A stretch of DNA of 64,000 bases. It comes from a virus. Positions 1,720 through 60,341 of this stretch are shown here, piece by piece; the first letter of the stretch is position 1, and each line of letters begins with the position of its first letter. The DNA lies in IMG/VR virus record IMGVR_UViG_3300035698_019895, positions 1-64,000 of that record. One strand, written 5' to 3'. The translations under genes were made by a program, and so were the position numbers. The notes below the pieces were generated by a model. That model saw only the letters and a program-made list of their open reading frames with translations. It made no database searches and was not told the origin of the DNA.

Positions 1720-1770
1720 TTTTAAAATATCACTTGACAAACCGGTGGCCTTGGGCTATATTGTATATGT
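1720..1770 (+). repeat. second copy of the ~50 bp promoter repeat
   Basis: Partner of the repeat at 1577-1627, containing the second promoter. The -35, the CCTTGGGC block and the -10 are conserved. Confidence 0.75.
1734..1762 (+). promoter_or_regulatory. sigma-70-type promoter P2
   Basis: TTGACA (1734-1739), 17 bp spacer, TATATT (1757-1762). The predicted start near 1769 gives a short leader to the gene at 1790 and could also drive the downstream structured-RNA cluster and Ro60. Confidence 0.78.
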
Positions 1771-2095: not shown

Positions 2096-2113
2096 AAGTT
2101 CTTTGAAAAATTT

Positions 2114-2252
2114 GGTAGTAGCGAGAAAAGGGTTACTTCAATACGAGAAAAAAGCTCGATTTCATATCGAGCATTGTATAAAATGCCGAAAGGCAGGCTA
2201 ATTAAAAAGGAGTGCTCAACTCTTTATCACTCTCTTTTCAACTTCCTCTACC
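2114..2252 (+). ncRNA. Y-RNA-like structured RNA, element 1
   Basis: Ends pair GGTAG (2114-2118) with CTACC (2248-2252). An inner helix pairs 2125-2132 with 2232-2239, and the motif TTACTTC follows its 5' strand. The interior has a strong hairpin GCTCGA/TCGAGC (2154-2172) and a GAAA-tetraloop hairpin TGCC/GGCA (2184-2195). The same outer architecture occurs in three neighbouring elements, and the next recognisable gene is Ro60, the known Y-RNA-binding protein. Confidence 0.65.
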
Positions 2253-2269
2253 AATTAAAAAAATATATT

Positions 2270-2336
2270 TTGAGGCAGTGATACAAGCGTTACTTCTATA
2301 ATCAGGAAAATACACGCTTATAACTTTTCTCCTCAA
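2270..2336 (+). ncRNA. Y-RNA-like structured RNA, element 2 (minimal)
   Basis: TTGAGG (2270-2275) pairs with CCTCAA (2331-2336). AAGCGT (2285-2290) pairs with ACGCTT (2314-2319). Between them are CAGTGA on the 5' side and AACTTTTCT on the 3' side, matching the other elements, and TTACTTC follows the inner 5' strand. At 67 nt it is almost only the shared stem with a small loop. Confidence 0.62.
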
Positions 2337-2343
2337 TTAAAAA

Positions 2344-2460
2344 TGAGTTAGATACTAAGTTTTCTTAATTGTACTCCCTATATCTCTATAGTTGTACGCT
2401 ATATATCTGTACTTAACAACTAAGTGGTAAGCGGTAGTGTGTATATAAGTGTCTAACTCA
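2344..2460 (+). other. long stem-loop of unknown type in the RNA cluster
   Basis: TGAGTTAGA (2344-2352) pairs perfectly with TCTAACTCA (2452-2460), closing a ~117 nt structured segment. It lacks the TTACTTC signature of the Y-like elements but contains a GGTAGTG string near its 3' side. It may be a further RNA or a spacer structure. Confidence 0.5.
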
Positions 2461-2463
2461 ATC

Positions 2464-2595
2464 CATTAGAGTAGTGAGATGAGAGTTACTTCGACTTGTA
2501 ATCGAGTGATGTGGGTTCGAATCCCACAAATGTCTTCGGACATGATAGCTTAATGGCAAAGCACTAAATCTCTCTCATCGGTTTTCTCTCTATTA
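2464..2595 (+). ncRNA. YrlA-type Y RNA with a circularly permuted tRNA domain
   Basis: The outer stem pairs TAGAG (2467-2471) with CTCTA (2588-2592), and GATGAGAG (2478-2485) with CTCTCATC (2572-2579). Inside, tRNA parts occur in rotated order. First comes an anticodon-like arm with loop CTTGTAA. Next is a perfect T arm, GTGGG TTCGAAT CCCAC (2511-2527). Then the acceptor strands ATGTC and GACAT are joined by a TTCG tetraloop (2530-2543). Last is a D arm, GCTT AATGGCA AAGC (2548-2562). Bacterial YrlA RNAs are known to have a Ro60-binding stem and a tRNA-mimic module. Confidence 0.82.
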
Positions 2596-2604
2596 TTGAA
2601 ACCC

Positions 2605-2644
2605 CTCGTTTGTTTCCTTATACGGGAAGAACAAAGCAAACGAG
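2605..2644 (+). other. stem-loop in the RNA cluster
   Basis: CTCGTTTG (2605-2612) pairs with CAAACGAG (2637-2644), with TTCC/GGAA inside. No T-run follows, so it does not look like a terminator. It may be a processing or spacer hairpin between Y-like RNAs. Confidence 0.5.
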
Positions 2645-2657
2645 TATATAAATTAAA

Positions 2658-2724
2658 TAGAGTAAGTGGCGAAAAAGGGGCTGATGACAACAGGTAACGC
2701 TGTTGACAACCTACATTTACTCTA
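2658..2724 (+). other. two-tier stem-loop in the RNA cluster
   Basis: TAGAGTAA (2658-2665) pairs with TTACTCTA (2717-2724), and CAACAG (2688-2693) with CTGTTG (2700-2705). It is compact, structured and non-coding. It lacks the TTACTTC motif. Confidence 0.5.
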
Positions 2725-2725
2725 A

Positions 2726-2815
2726 CCATAGAGTAGTGAGGAAAGAGATACTTCAGGAACCGACCTGTCAAAAGGTTGATAAAAAGCACTCTTTCTAGTT
2801 TTCTCTCTTTATTTA
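2726..2815 (+). ncRNA. Y-RNA-like structured RNA, element 4
   Basis: GAAAGAG (2741-2747) pairs with CTCTTTC (2789-2795). The 5' flank AGAGTAGTGAG is shared with the permuted-tRNA element, and so is the 3' flank AGTTTTCTCTC. ATACTTC follows the inner 5' strand. A small interior hairpin replaces the tRNA module. It lies 60 nt upstream of the Ro60 start codon. Confidence 0.65.
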
Positions 2816-5321: not shown

Positions 5322-5981
5322 ATGAAAAATTTTGATTTCAATACTATTCATGATTTTGATGCACATATTTTACAGTCCATTCCTAATTATAATGTTTTAT
5401 TTAATTCTATATTGCGTATAAGCGACTATTTCAAAGATTCCAAAAAAAATATCTATGACATAGGTTGTTCTACTGGTAAACTGTTAAAATATATTAACGA
5501 AGTAGAAAAATATACTGGTAATATGATAGGATTAGATAACAGCAGAAATTTATTACCAGAGAATGCTAGAGAATTTGAAAATATTAAATTTTTAGAGTGG
5601 GATTTAAACAAGCCGTTCTCATTTGAGAATGCTTGTTTAATTTTTTGTATATTTACATTACAATTTTTAAGAAAAGAATCAAGACAAGCAGTTCTAGATA
5701 ATGTATATAAAGGGCTTAATAAAGGTGGAGCGTTCATCATAGCAGAAAAAACTTATGTATCTGATGGGCAATTTCAAGATATATTTACTTTTTCTTACTA
5801 TGATTATAAGAAAGCATCCTTTTCCAACGAAGCTATATTAAACAAAGAAAAAGATTTGAGAACAATACTAAAACCTAACTATTCTCATGAAAATCTAGAA
5901 ATATTGTATAATGCAGGTTTTAGAAAAATCCAAATGTTCTACAAATTCTTCCAATTTGAAGCTTATTTATGTGTAAAATAA
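5322..5981 (+). CDS. cmoA: CmoA-like SAM-dependent enzyme (carboxy-SAM synthase family)
   Basis: Class I methyltransferase fold with YDIGCSTGK and GLDNS SAM motifs. The run FTLQFL, then LDNVYKGLNKGGA, then EK matches CmoA, which makes carboxy-SAM for wobble-uridine (cmo5U) tRNA modification. The C-terminal NAGF block also aligns. In an alignment from memory, the E. coli Arg199 that contacts the carboxylate falls on Glu here, so the exact reaction is open. ATG 5322 follows AGGAG at 5311-5315, which is better than the TTG at 5316. No CmoB was seen. Confidence 0.72.
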   Translation: MKNFDFNTIHDFDAHILQSIPNYNVLFNSILRISDYFKDSKKNIYDIGCSTGKLLKYINEVEKYTGNMIGLDNSRNLLPENAREFENIKFLEWDLNKPFSFENACLIFCIFTLQFLRKESRQAVLDNVYKGLNKGGAFIIAEKTYVSDGQFQDIFTFSYYDYKKASFSNEAILNKEKDLRTILKPNYSHENLEILYNAGFRKIQMFYKFFQFEAYLCVK

Positions 5982-5986
5982 TGATT

Positions 5987-6078
5987 ATTATACCTTAACG
6001 GGTATAATATAGAGAATGTTAGTGTTACAACGTACCCGAACGGGTATAAAAAAATAAAAAGTGTACCCTAAAGGGTAT
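5987..6078 (+). repeat. three GGGTATA hairpin repeats
   Basis: Three inverted repeats occur in the only long gap here: ATTATACC/GGTATAAT (5987-6008), TACCC-GAAC-GGGTA (6033-6046) and TACCC-TAAA-GGGTA (6064-6077). Each is followed by TATAA or an A-run. The last ends about 18 bp before the next start codon. They could be operator sites or mRNA hairpins. Confidence 0.65.
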
Positions 6079-6095
6079 AAAAAAAGAGTAAAAAT

Positions 6096-6950
6096 ATGGT
6101 TATTTCTAAAAAGTTAAGACAAGATTTAGATAAAATTGTAAAAAGAGAAGTTGCTGGTAAAAAAGTTTGTAGCATGTTATCTGGTGGTATAGATTCATTT
6201 GCAATAACTTATTTAGCTAGTAAATATGCTTCAAAACTAAAATCAGTAGTTGTTACTAATGGTGTAGATGGACAAGATGCAATTTTTGCAGCATTGTGTG
6301 CGAAAGCGATTTGTGCAAAAGGAATAAATGTCTATTTAGATATACTAAAATTTGATGCACAAGATGCTTATAATGTAACTAGAGATTTCTTAAAGAAATT
6401 TCCATGCAAAACTATTGTTAGATTGCAATGTGGTTTAATTACAGAAGTATGTGCAAAATATGCACAAAGTAATGGTTTTGACTCTCTATTATGTGGTGAT
6501 GGTGCTGATGCTGTATTTGGTAGCACTGGTCATATGCGTAGAAAGAGCATAAGACCAGATTTCAATGCTATTAAACGAGAGACTTGCGAAAAGGGCATAT
6601 CAGAGGGTGTTGGGAGCGATTTCGTTGCTATATGTCGCTATTATAGCTTAAAACCGGTACTTCCATACCGGGATGCAGACTTTATAAACAACTATGTAGA
6701 TTTAGATGATAAGATAGTAAATAAGCCAAAAGAAAAACAGATATTACGAAGTGCTTTTGAAAAAGAGCTACCACGAGATTTAGTTTATAGAGAAAGATTA
6801 ACATTGCAAGTGGGAGTAGGAATTAAAGAAAAACATATAGAATTGTTGAGAAACGATTCACCAAAAGGTTATAAGAGTCCTAGATATCTTATAAAGGAGA
6901 TAATAAATGACTTACAAAGTCATCAGTTTGTTTTCGGGTACAGGGGGTAG
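6096..6950 (+). CDS. AsnB-like PP-loop synthetase without a glutaminase domain
   Basis: ATP-pyrophosphatase of the asparagine-synthetase/beta-lactam-synthetase type. The PP-loop SGGIDS is at 29-34 and GDGADAVFGST at 134-144, matching the GxGADExFGG element of AsnB. The N-terminal Ntn glutaminase half of AsnB is absent (284 residues in total), so it would use ammonia or another amine and adenylate an unknown acid. It overlaps the DNA methyltransferase by 44 bp. A link to DNA-base modification is inference only. Confidence 0.72.
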   Translation: MVISKKLRQDLDKIVKREVAGKKVCSMLSGGIDSFAITYLASKYASKLKSVVVTNGVDGQDAIFAALCAKAICAKGINVYLDILKFDAQDAYNVTRDFLKKFPCKTIVRLQCGLITEVCAKYAQSNGFDSLLCGDGADAVFGSTGHMRRKSIRPDFNAIKRETCEKGISEGVGSDFVAICRYYSLKPVLPYRDADFINNYVDLDDKIVNKPKEKQILRSAFEKELPRDLVYRERLTLQVGVGIKEKHIELLRNDSPKGYKSPRYLIKEIINDLQSHQFVFGYRG

Positions 6951-52436: not shown

Positions 52437-52805
52437 ATGAAGCTACAAGACCAAGTCGTAAGTTTAGAGTTATCTAAGCAGTTAAAAGAGGCAGGATATA
52501 GGCAAGAAGGCTTATGGTGGTGGCAACTGACAGGTTTTCCAATAGAAGAATATTACAATGGAAAATTAACTAATAATCCTAATAATGAAACGTTAAGAGC
52601 CATTATCGCTCCCACAGTTGCAGAGTTAGGGGAAGCGTTGCCTGATACATTTGTATCAGGACAATTAGATATAAAAAGTAATAAACCACATACCTTTGCT
52701 TGTTATGGGTGGTCACAAATTCCACAACAAGAGGCCGACACCGAAGCCAATGCCAGAGCAAAAATGTGGTTATATTTAAAAAAAGAAAGGAAGAAAAGTG
52801 GCTAA
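52437..52805 (+). CDS. paralog family A, copy 3
   Basis: 122 residues: VVSLELSKQLKEAGYRQEG, APTVAELGEALP and ANARAKMWLYLKK align with 8031 and 31678. GAAAGGAAG precedes the start. Upstream DNA shares ATGAAGCTACAAGACCAA with copy 1, indicating duplication at the 5' end. Confidence 0.7.
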   Translation: MKLQDQVVSLELSKQLKEAGYRQEGLWWWQLTGFPIEEYYNGKLTNNPNNETLRAIIAPTVAELGEALPDTFVSGQLDIKSNKPHTFACYGWSQIPQQEADTEANARAKMWLYLKKERKKSG

Positions 52806-53451
52806 AGAAAAAATAATTCTTTCAGCAATTGTAGGGTCTCATGCATATGGATTAGCTAATGAAGATAGTGATATAGATACTTTAGGAATCTATGTAGCTC
52901 CAACTCAAGAAGTACTAGGAATACGCAATATAAAAGAAACTATACACAAAACTAATCCAGATGTTACATATCATGAAGTAAAGAAATTTATTAGTTTAGC
53001 TTTGAAATGTAATCCTACTATTTTAGAATTATTGTTTGTAGATAAGTATCTCAAACAAACTCCAGAAGGATTACTATTAGTACATAATAGAAAAGCATTT
53101 TTAAGCAGAATTATATATAACTCTTATGGTGGATATGCTATATCTCAAGCTCGCAAATTAAATGCGAAAGGAACTTTTCCATCAAAAGTAAAGAATAGAT
53201 ATGCAAAACATGCCAGACATGTTTATAGATTATTAGACCAAGGTCGACAACTTCTTGAAACAGGTAATTTGAATGTTAAAGTTAAGAACAGAGATGAACT
53301 GATGAGAATAGGAGAACTACCTGTATATGAATTAATTACAAAATTTGAAAAGGATTTTAAAAAGTTTGACCAAACTGTGACTACATTACCAGATAAACCT
53401 GATTATGAAACTATCAATAAAATACTTCTGGAAATTAGGAGTTACAATTAA
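52798..53451 (+). CDS. Pol-beta-type nucleotidyltransferase
   Basis: 217 residues from GTG 52798. GSHAYGLANEDSDIDTLGIY is the GSxxYG/SDID nucleotidyltransferase motif, and the rest is helical as in phage RlaP-like members. It could modify an RNA or protein with a nucleotide. A diverged copy of its last 22 codons lies at 53919-53984, beyond the next gene. Confidence 0.78.
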   Translation: MAKEKIILSAIVGSHAYGLANEDSDIDTLGIYVAPTQEVLGIRNIKETIHKTNPDVTYHEVKKFISLALKCNPTILELLFVDKYLKQTPEGLLLVHNRKAFLSRIIYNSYGGYAISQARKLNAKGTFPSKVKNRYAKHARHVYRLLDQGRQLLETGNLNVKVKNRDELMRIGELPVYELITKFEKDFKKFDQTVTTLPDKPDYETINKILLEIRSYN

Positions 53452-54190: not shown

Positions 54191-54369
54191 GTCAGTTTTG
54201 TAGAATTTGTGCAAAGAAAATACAAAAAGACAGAACAGGGCATGAACAAGTTTGTAACAAATGTATTGATAGTTTATCCCCTTGTCCTCATTGTTTTAGT
54301 ATGACATATACTATTAAAGATAAATGTGGAAAATGCAAAGAAAATAAATTAAAATGTATAATAAAGTAA
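54187..54369 (+). CDS. 60-residue multi-cysteine zinc protein
   Basis: CRIC, CNKC, CPHC and CGKC pairs suggest two zinc sites. Overlaps both neighbours and precedes the CCA-adding enzyme. Confidence 0.62.
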   Translation: MSQFCRICAKKIQKDRTGHEQVCNKCIDSLSPCPHCFSMTYTIKDKCGKCKENKLKCIIK

Positions 54370-55346
54370 AAGAAATTATCAATCCAGTATATATTGTAGG
54401 TGGTTCTGTTAGAGACGAAATTATGGGAAAGAAACCCAAAGATTACGATTTCTGCACTCCATTACTACCTGATGAAATTGAAAAAGCTATAAAGAAAGCT
54501 GGTAAGAAAGCTTATAACATCGGTAAAAGATTCGGTACTCTTGGAATGACTTTCGATGGCCAAATGGTTGAAGTTACTACTTTCAGAACTGAACAATATA
54601 CTCCTGGAAGCAGAAAACCTCAAGTTCAATTTGTCAATGATATTACTGCAGATTTAAGCAGAAGAGATTTTAGAATCAACTCAATAGCTAAAAGAGATGG
54701 CAAATATATTGACCCCTTTGGTGGCAGATTAGATATAATGGAACGCAGTATTAAATGTGTTGGAGAACCAAAGGCTAGATTCAAAGAAGACCCCTTAAGA
54801 ATGTTAAGAGCTGCTAGATTTGCTTCTCAATTAGAATTTAGTATAGACCAGTATCTAGAACAAATGGCTAAAAAAATGTGTCATAAAATTCTAGAAGTTA
54901 GTAAAGAGAGATGGATGATGGAGATGGATAAATTACTTGTAACTGAACATCCAGAATTGGGTTTAGACTTTTTAGCTAGAACTAAATTACTGAACTTTAT
55001 GTTTCCAGAATTATCTTTACAAGTAGACTATGACCAGAACAATCCATTTCATAGTTTAAATTTGTGGGAACATACTAAATTAACTGTATATTATACTCCA
55101 AAAGATGTCAACTTACGATGGGCTTCATTATTACATGATATCGGTAAACCTTTTGTTAGAGGAGAAAAAGACAATCCTCCCAGAAGTAATTATATTAAGC
55201 ATGATTTACTCGGAAAAGAACTTGTAGAGAAATATGCACGATATTTAAAATGGTCCAACGAAAGACGAGAGAAAGTCTCTGAATTAGTTTTAAATCATTT
55301 ACTAACAGGAAGTCCTATATACGAAGCTGATAAGAAAGCTCATTAA
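54354..55346 (+). CDS. cca: tRNA nucleotidyltransferase (CCA-adding enzyme) with HD domain
   Basis: 330 residues. Head domain GGSVRDEIMG (16-25) with catalytic D30 and D32 (DYDF), RRDFRINSIA, and EDPLRMLRAARFASQL in the neck. C-terminal HD domain SLLHDIGKP with EHTKLT. Would repair or add CCA to tRNAs. The phage tRNAs mostly encode CCA, so repair of damaged tRNA ends is a likely job. Confidence 0.94.
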   Translation: MYNKVKEIINPVYIVGGSVRDEIMGKKPKDYDFCTPLLPDEIEKAIKKAGKKAYNIGKRFGTLGMTFDGQMVEVTTFRTEQYTPGSRKPQVQFVNDITADLSRRDFRINSIAKRDGKYIDPFGGRLDIMERSIKCVGEPKARFKEDPLRMLRAARFASQLEFSIDQYLEQMAKKMCHKILEVSKERWMMEMDKLLVTEHPELGLDFLARTKLLNFMFPELSLQVDYDQNNPFHSLNLWEHTKLTVYYTPKDVNLRWASLLHDIGKPFVRGEKDNPPRSNYIKHDLLGKELVEKYARYLKWSNERREKVSELVLNHLLTGSPIYEADKKAH

Positions 55347-59552: not shown

Positions 59553-60341
59553 ATGAGTAAATTAGACGGTTTGGCTATTGGTGATAGAATGAAGAGATAT
59601 GAAAAAGTATCTGAATTTGTATTATCAAGACGAATTCCAGTAATAATTCGCATAGATGGAAGAGCATTTCACACTGTTACTCGTAAACGTTTTGGTAAGA
59701 ATTGGTCTATGGAATTTGTAGAACAGATGATAGAAACAGCTAAGACAGTTATGACTGATATACAAGGATGTAACTTTTGTTACTCTCAATCTGACGAAAT
59801 AAGTTTTCTTCTGACAGATTATACTACTATACGAACAGAAGCTTGGTTTGGATATGATATTAGAAAACTTATATCTATATCTGCTTCTTTAGCAAGTTCG
59901 GTATTTTCTAGATTATACGGTAAAAATGTATGTTTTGATAGTAGAGCTTTTTCTCTTCCTCAAGATGAAGTATGTAATTACTTTATTTGGAGACAAGTAG
60001 ATGCTACTAGAAATGCGATACAAATGGCAGGAAGAGAATATTTTTCTCACAAGCAACTAAATGAAAAAAGTTGTAATGAAATACAAGAAATGCTCTTCCA
60101 AGAAAATAATATAAATTTCAATGATTATCCTGTAGTTAGAAAAAGAGGGTTTTCTATAATAAAACAATTTGAACATCAAAAAGACTTTGATGAAACTATT
60201 CAGAAGAATGATAAATTATATAAAGCTGAAAGTGGTGAAGAAGTAAAAAATAGAAAGAAACCATATGCTGATTTAGAGATTCCTATATTTACTCAAGATA
60301 GAAACTATATAAAACAGTTTGTAAACGTAAGAGAGGATTAA
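59553..60341 (+). CDS. thg1: tRNA-His guanylyltransferase family (Thg1/TLP)
   Basis: 262 residues. RIDGRAFH (33-40, D35) and SQSDEISFLL (D81, E82) supply the catalytic carboxylates, preceded by ETAKTVMTDIQGCNFCYSQ. The family adds nucleotides in the 3'-to-5' direction, either G-1 on tRNA-His or repair of 5'-truncated tRNAs. It lies just after tRNA-His. Because that tRNA already encodes G-1, 5'-end repair may be the true role. Confidence 0.94.
   Translation: MSKLDGLAIGDRMKRYEKVSEFVLSRRIPVIIRIDGRAFHTVTRKRFGKNWSMEFVEQMIETAKTVMTDIQGCNFCYSQSDEISFLLTDYTTIRTEAWFGYDIRKLISISASLASSVFSRLYGKNVCFDSRAFSLPQDEVCNYFIWRQVDATRNAIQMAGREYFSHKQLNEKSCNEIQEMLFQENNINFNDYPVVRKRGFSIIKQFEHQKDFDETIQKNDKLYKAESGEEVKNRKKPYADLEIPIFTQDRNYIKQFVNVRED

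Follow-up and report, generated by a model that had tools for sequence, protein, structure and literature searches.

The particles formed by Ro60 and Y RNAs are conserved all the way from phages to humans, and Ro60 is a major autoantigen in lupus. Chen et al. (RNA, 2014) are said to have described Y RNAs near Ro60 genes in phages, and at least one RNA of each bacterial Y locus reportedly carries a tRNA-like domain. The vertebrate Y RNAs (RF00019) are partners of Ro60 with a helical handle and a variable loop. The function of bacterial Y RNAs was studied in the genus Deinococcus (PMC7790460): Y RNAs attach to the outside of the ring-shaped Ro60 and gate it, and in Deinococcus they also tether Ro60 to PNPase (PMC4030889, PMC7790460, PMC8394870). 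In a further described form, YrlA (RF02553; Salmonella structure 6CU1), the Ro60-binding stem carries a permuted tRNA mimic composed of D, T and acceptor arms only (PMC8394870). In the present study, we analysed a stretch of 64,000 nucleotides (the window), which makes up most of the 86,490-base IMG/VR virus record IMGVR_UViG_3300035698_019895, the remainder of which was also scanned for elements. We consider it highly probable (about 0.88) that four elements of this window, named E1-E4, encode phage Y RNAs whose partner is the Ro60 protein specified by the next gene downstream, each RNA being built from a common handle and a swappable payload.

The elements occupy a 780-base gap (2096-2875) between a 116-amino-acid open reading frame (ORF) ending at 2095 and the Ro60 gene, whose start is about 60 bases 3' of E4; the genes of all four RNAs are thus located upstream of, and near, Ro60 (TROVE). 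In each of them the 5' end pairs with the 3' end to give a long, interrupted stem whose internal-loop bases are conserved, and all four have the same order of parts: a closing stem, a 6-nucleotide (nt) 5' bulge (YAGYGA), an inner helix of 8-9 base pairs (bp), the sequence (U/A)UACUUC, a variable insert, the 3' strand of the inner helix, an 8-nt 3' bulge (NNYUUYCU) and the 3' strand of the closing stem. The inserts carried by this handle are 92 nt (E1), 17 nt (E2), 79 nt (E3) and 34 nt (E4) long. A strict two-helix scan of both strands of the window placed E1-E4 among its top matches, with scores of 38-42 (the best score in 200 dinucleotide shuffles of the region was 38), and they were the only motif-bearing matches found by the scanner in the whole record. 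The motif and pairing scores of the scanner were set by hand, and its counts, here and below, are backed mainly by a covariance model (R1) and by strand asymmetry. The folding-energy z-score was -4.5 for E1 and a weak -0.87 for E4, the latter element being carried by the comparative evidence.

R1 was constructed from 19 minimal elements of other phages, and the window elements were left out of its training. In the 86.5-kb record it recovered E2, E3, E4 and E1 (match 2112-2254) with rough E-values of 1.8e-14, 4.5e-12, 2.4e-10 and 1.2e-8, respectively, while no other match in the record was below E 0.05 (the next one was at 0.09). The scan and the model together bear out an earlier note on this DNA, made from the letters alone, which had described four elements with these parts. 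Covariation in related phages, on which that note had staked its proposal, is present: it amounted to 0.841 in R1, compared with 0.250 +/- 0.032 in shuffles and 0.10-0.25 with slid partners (paired cells in the alignment, 91% versus 61%). In a half-swap control between elements chosen by sequence alone, 5.64 of 8 pairs of the inner helix were formed, versus 4.06 +/- 0.08 for the swapped halves. The three further hairpins that had been noticed between the elements also proved to be real predicted folds, with no match to the Y model (Table 1).

Table 1. Coordinates of the elements and of other features of the window
Feature	Position	Strand	Description
E1	2111..2256	+	closing stem 2112-2118/2248-2254, inner helix 2125-2132/2232-2239
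E1 loops		+	5' bulge TAGCGA 2119-2124, TTACTTC 2133-2139, 3' bulge AACTTCCT 2240-2247
E1 insert		+	92 nt, GAAA-capped hairpin plus other hairpins
E2, minimal form	2269..2337	+	closing stem 2270-2275/2331-2336, inner helix begins at 2282
E2 loops		+	5' bulge CAGTGA 2276-2281, TTACTTC 2290-2296, 3' bulge ACTTTTCT 2323-2330
Structured stretch between E2 and E3, not Y-like	2341..2464	+	fold z -3.35; no R1 match
E3, tRNA-like insert	2465..2594	+	closing stem 2467-2471/2588-2592, inner helix 2478-2485/2572-2579
E3 loops		+	5' bulge TAGTGA 2472-2477, TTACTTC 2486-2492, 3' bulge GGTTTTCT 2580-2587
Predicted permuted tRNA module inside E3	2490..2562	+	anticodon arm 2490-2506, T arm 2511-2527, acceptor helix closed by UUCG 2530-2543, D arm 2548-2562
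Hairpin between E3 and E4, not Y-like	2595..2652	+	fold z -3.34
Long-stemmed hairpin between E3 and E4, not Y-like	2650..2728	+	fold z -3.15
E4	2727..2813	+	closing stem 2730-2733/2805-2808, inner helix 2740-2747/2789-2796
E4 loops		+	5' bulge TAGTGA 2734-2739, ATACTTC 2748-2754, 3' bulge AGTTTTCT 2797-2804
Ro60 orthologue, 512 amino acids	2876..4414	+	TROVE HEAT ring and vWA (Pfam, conservation, AlphaFold2, Foldseek)
Sigma-70-like promoter	1734..1762	+	TTGACA-17-TATATT; consensus scan, 11/12; could drive the 116-amino-acid ORF and the RNA cluster

The distribution of the elements was analysed at 80 viral and 80 bacterial or archaeal Ro60 loci, chosen by the protein alone. Among loci with at least 1 kb of upstream sequence, the scanner detected elements in 62 of 77 viral ones (129 on the strand of Ro60, 2 on the opposite strand) and in 38 of 65 cellular ones (78 and 1, respectively). 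R1 produced 137 matches at the 80 bacterial and archaeal loci, every one on the Ro60 strand, and zero in 61 control loci (661 kb) that contain the primary motif without a Ro60 gene. The linkage was also visible from the RNA side, where a sequence-only pattern searched over IMG/VR gave at least 119 stretches. Among the matches listed, 14 of the 20 structured motif matches were on records with Ro60; both helices were formed in 10 matches in loci with a Ro60 gene, and Ro60 was located elsewhere in 4 of 8 further records, while it was present in 0 of the 50 checked records whose match was not scored as structured. The scanner also revealed variants that carry UUACUUC close to the Ro60 genes of Xanthomonas, Caulobacter, Brevundimonas, Streptomyces, Arthrobacter, Microcystis, Thermus and Bacteroides phages and of a Haloarcula plasmid, several of which have weaker bulge motifs and are known from the scanner without R1 confirmation. 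R1 thus detects well over a hundred of these RNAs, which are absent from Rfam 15, and relatives of E1-E4 carry the same mix of payload kinds on the handle. A single long Y element (161-223 nt insert) upstream of Ro60, with no tRNA-like payload seen, was observed in the phages of loci L152, L156, L160, L164, L168, L176 and L008.

This arrangement would also be expected if the elements were mainly cis-acting, i.e. if Ro60 bound its own leader transcript and controlled its own expression, since 125 of the 129 viral elements and 74 of the 78 cellular ones precede Ro60 on the same strand, most often within the gap immediately before it. However, some elements are found downstream of Ro60 (phage crAss001 and its relatives, Arthrobacter phage Atuin, Thermus phage phiLo) or about 10 kb distant (L124), and separate RNAs are a better fit both for the tandem copies, which number up to six and carry unrelated payloads, and for the tRNA-ended forms. 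A mainly cis-acting role is unlikely.

The product of the neighbouring gene is a true Ro60. Pfam analysis of the protein identified the TROVE (3.8e-22) and vWA_Ro60 (3.8e-10) domains, and the DxSxS motif of the latter (D322, S324, S326) is intact and invariant among relatives. The AlphaFold2 model (predicted local distance difference test, 82; predicted template modelling score, 0.75) matched human Ro60 in Foldseek (1.8e-17), as well as the Ro60 proteins of Xenopus, Deinococcus and phage phiLo. The last of these (PDB 9l5y), a solved phage Ro60 and one of the top ten fold matches, comes from a locus in which candidate elements are also present, there downstream of the gene; it differs in having been deposited as a protein dimer, with its RNA partner unnamed.

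Judged by their architecture, synteny, tRNA mimicry and a match in Deinococcus, E1-E4 are predicted members of the bacterial Y RNA kind. The Y-RNA-like identity proposed in the earlier note is supported by the covariation, the Ro60 linkage and this match, as well as by the confirmed identity of the adjacent protein. The match, to an element upstream of the TROVE gene of D. taeanensis, was obtained with R1 (E 6.4e-6; D. radiodurans itself was outside the comparison), and a second D. taeanensis element, which scored 40.8 bits with the YrlA model, appears on reading to hold a permuted four-arm tRNA payload as in E3. The window elements resemble Deinococcus-type Y RNAs in that they adjoin the Ro60 gene, occur several to a locus, and combine base-paired ends with an internal loop and a payload, but the Deinococcus anchor is UUCCUUC (UUACUUC in E1-E3) and its 3' bulge is a variant one.

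In the covariance-model search suggested in the earlier note, covariation was strong and elements were found beside Ro60 in many genomes; the Rfam Y-family models reached at best E 0.28 in the window (YrlA on E3, 21.4 bits, gathering score of 69 bits not reached). The vertebrate family differs from E1-E4 in that it had no Rfam match on the window. The YrlA model had no gathering-level match in 31 related loci, scored 50 and 40 bits, below the cut-off, on elements of Xanthomonas phage Olaya, and gave no match on E. coli, the intended yardstick. At gathering level, the window and the 31 loci contained only matches to tRNA, transfer-messenger RNA and group I intron; thus, Rfam cannot decide membership and, given the weak Y models, the kind was assigned from architecture, synteny and the Deinococcus match. 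The form represented by E1-E4 is absent from Rfam 15, while the kind itself is known.

The insert of E3 is predicted to fold as a circularly permuted tRNA that retains all four arms, which provides this locus, too, with a tRNA-like domain in at least one RNA. Its anticodon-like arm has a 7-nt loop, CUUGUAA, with the anticodon UGU at 2497-2499. Unlike YrlA, E3 and 25 others have a separate anticodon arm: in these 26 elements the arm order of E3 is combined with a 7-nt loop that adjoins UUACUUC and has U33, a purine at position 37 and one of various anticodons (shuffles gave a rate of 6%), while about seven other elements have the order D-anticodon-T-acceptor, i.e. they are joined at another junction. 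The separate anticodon arm in a permuted tRNA payload looks new, although this novelty is provisional. The Rfam tRNA model (RF00005) gave 23.7 bits on E3, under its 29-bit threshold, and ARAGORN called no tRNA there; the arm order is permuted and not that of a linear cloverleaf. An annotated phage tRNA-Thr shares 83% identity with part of E3; this tRNA is located directly upstream of a Ro60-like gene and is probably itself contained within such a Y element. Probably, some of the features annotated as tRNAs in phages are in fact Ro60 RNAs. In phage csAssE-Sib (OR575929; L009), the annotated tRNA-Tyr (2666-2738) and tRNA-Lys (2811-2884) lie inside Y elements immediately upstream of Ro60.

The tRNA arms of E3, and the placement of many Ro60 loci within tRNA arrays, could be taken as a sign of degenerate or pseudo-tRNA genes accompanied by chance hairpins near the Ro60 gene. 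This explanation, which is already contradicted by the strong covariation and by the zero matches in control loci, is hardly credible: three of the four elements are without a recognised tRNA module, while the handle is common to all of them. At L224, L243, L252, L258, L271 (Verrucomicrobia), L313 (phage Atuin) and L322 (Haloarcula halophila plasmid), the Ro60 gene lies within or next to a tRNA gene array, whose size ranges from several to over 20 genes.

If E1-E4 are indeed Y RNAs, their handle (closing stem, 6-nt/8-nt internal loop, inner helix and UUACUUC) would be bound by the outside of the Ro60 ring, and the insert would constitute an exchangeable payload, with a minimal loop in E2, hairpins in E1 and E4, and a permuted tRNA mimic in E3. 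Each RNA would most likely gate the ring or tether Ro60 to a different partner, so that a small set of Y RNAs might allow the phage to steer its single Ro60 toward different partners. The idea of a modular RNA repertoire for one protein, put forward in the earlier note, is borne out by the four insert lengths on one handle and with the same mixture in relatives. The roles of Y RNA payloads are poorly known, and one handle with many payloads in many hosts amounts to a natural experiment. E3 may bring tRNA-binding factors (nuclease, modification, end-repair or CCA enzymes) to Ro60 during infection, or serve as a decoy for tRNA-cutting defences.

The latter role can be extended to the tRNA-like payloads in general, as decoys for anticodon nucleases of the host defence, with Ro60 stabilising the decoy or collecting cut tRNA. 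The 26 elements with the anticodon arm described above speak for it, as do the competitive-inhibitor role proposed for YrlA, which is without an anticodon arm (PMC7790460), and the presence in this genome of genes for an RlaP RNA-repair protein, a CCA-adding enzyme and Thg1. The minimal payloads (E2, E4) would, however, be unable to act in this way, and the anticodon-arm form occurs in bacteria too; such a general function is possible, but we doubt it.

Our computations show a conserved structure with covariation, linkage to Ro60 genes, varied payloads and tRNA mimicry; we infer transcription, Ro60 binding, gating or tethering, and the payload targets. Several observations weigh against the proposal that the four elements are Y RNAs of this Ro60. 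The bulge sequences of E1-E4 are unlike the YrlA consensus. Promoters before the first elements of related loci were hardly enriched (20 of 129, compared with 13.6 expected), so separate transcription of the Y elements is not established, perfect promoters being present in a few loci (L004, L117, L202). Finally, no PNPase, RtcB or own RNA ligase was found in the 86,490-base record, which means that such partners, including the best-known tether partner, would be host-supplied.

A second type of tRNA-Y chimera, with the opposite strand order, was identified in other genomes. In crAss001 (MH675552; L300 4693-4840 and 4948-5090), two unannotated RNAs downstream of the Ro60 (TROVE) gene start and end at a 7-bp acceptor stem and contain a T arm, and their middle part is a closed Y stem followed by TTACTTC. 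The acceptor-ended form is also present in crAss relatives (IMG/VR crAss-like records), in cr106_1 and in two large IMG/VR records with encoded CCA; in a third large IMG/VR record the Y stem is placed between the D and anticodon arms. Halovirus HGTV-1 (KC292026 70440-70571; L305 4941-5072) has a Y-like closed stem with TTACTTC inside a GenBank feature annotated as 'tRNA Asp (gtc) + Intron', with an RtcB gene close by and Ro60 about 3 kb off, although this case may be an ordinary archaeal tRNA intron with a chance Y-like look. In total, 12 acceptor-ended cases were found (several of them near-identical copies), versus 0 in eight null replicates over 2.5 Mb, and the Rfam tRNA model independently covers several of them over their full length, accommodating an insert of 60-70 nt. 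This chimera looks new, its novelty being provisional, and hidden in phage tRNA annotation.

We lean towards the view that these forms represent one tRNA-Y chimera, made in several strand orders with one secondary structure. In the first order (E3), the RNA would end in the Ro60 stem and the acceptor would be capped; in the second, both ends would be those of the acceptor stem, with CCA after it in some cases, and the anticodon arm would be accompanied or replaced by the Ro60 stem as a closed hairpin. What is selected would then be the three-dimensional tRNA-Ro60 handle object, in a new RNA class tying Ro60 to tRNA metabolism. If true, this class was previously undescribed, masked as 'tRNA + intron' or unannotated. 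The existence of permuted and unpermuted forms makes it possible to test in cultured phages, e.g. crAss001, whether the tRNA mimic is read as a tRNA, and at which end. At L124, tRNA-Y chimeras were observed at 5367-5495 and 5980-6109; a tRNA of the same array (5727-5854) has a 54-nt anticodon-loop insert, which folds into a long stem without the Y motif.

Other identities of the cluster were also considered. A coding gene at 2096-2875 was rejected in view of the conserved paired structure and the absence of any plus-strand ORF of at least 60 amino acids within these limits; one minus-strand ORF (2550-2858; 102 amino acids, TTG start) overlaps E3 and E4. A terminator array was rejected, as were CRISPR-like repeats, the payloads of E1-E4 being unrelated to each other. 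The sigma-70-like promoter upstream of the cluster (Table 1) has a near copy at 1590-1618, which is followed by a terminator-like hairpin (1644-1658), and both share the sequence TTGACA...CCTTGGGCTATATTGT; the overall number of such promoters was not above that in shuffles, which makes the evidence for the one at 1734-1762 weak. The genes of the RlaP RNA-repair nucleotidyltransferase (52798-53448), the CCA-adding enzyme (54354-55343) and the Thg1-like protein (59553-60338) are located close to a region of the window with 11 tRNAs (56.2-62.3 kb).
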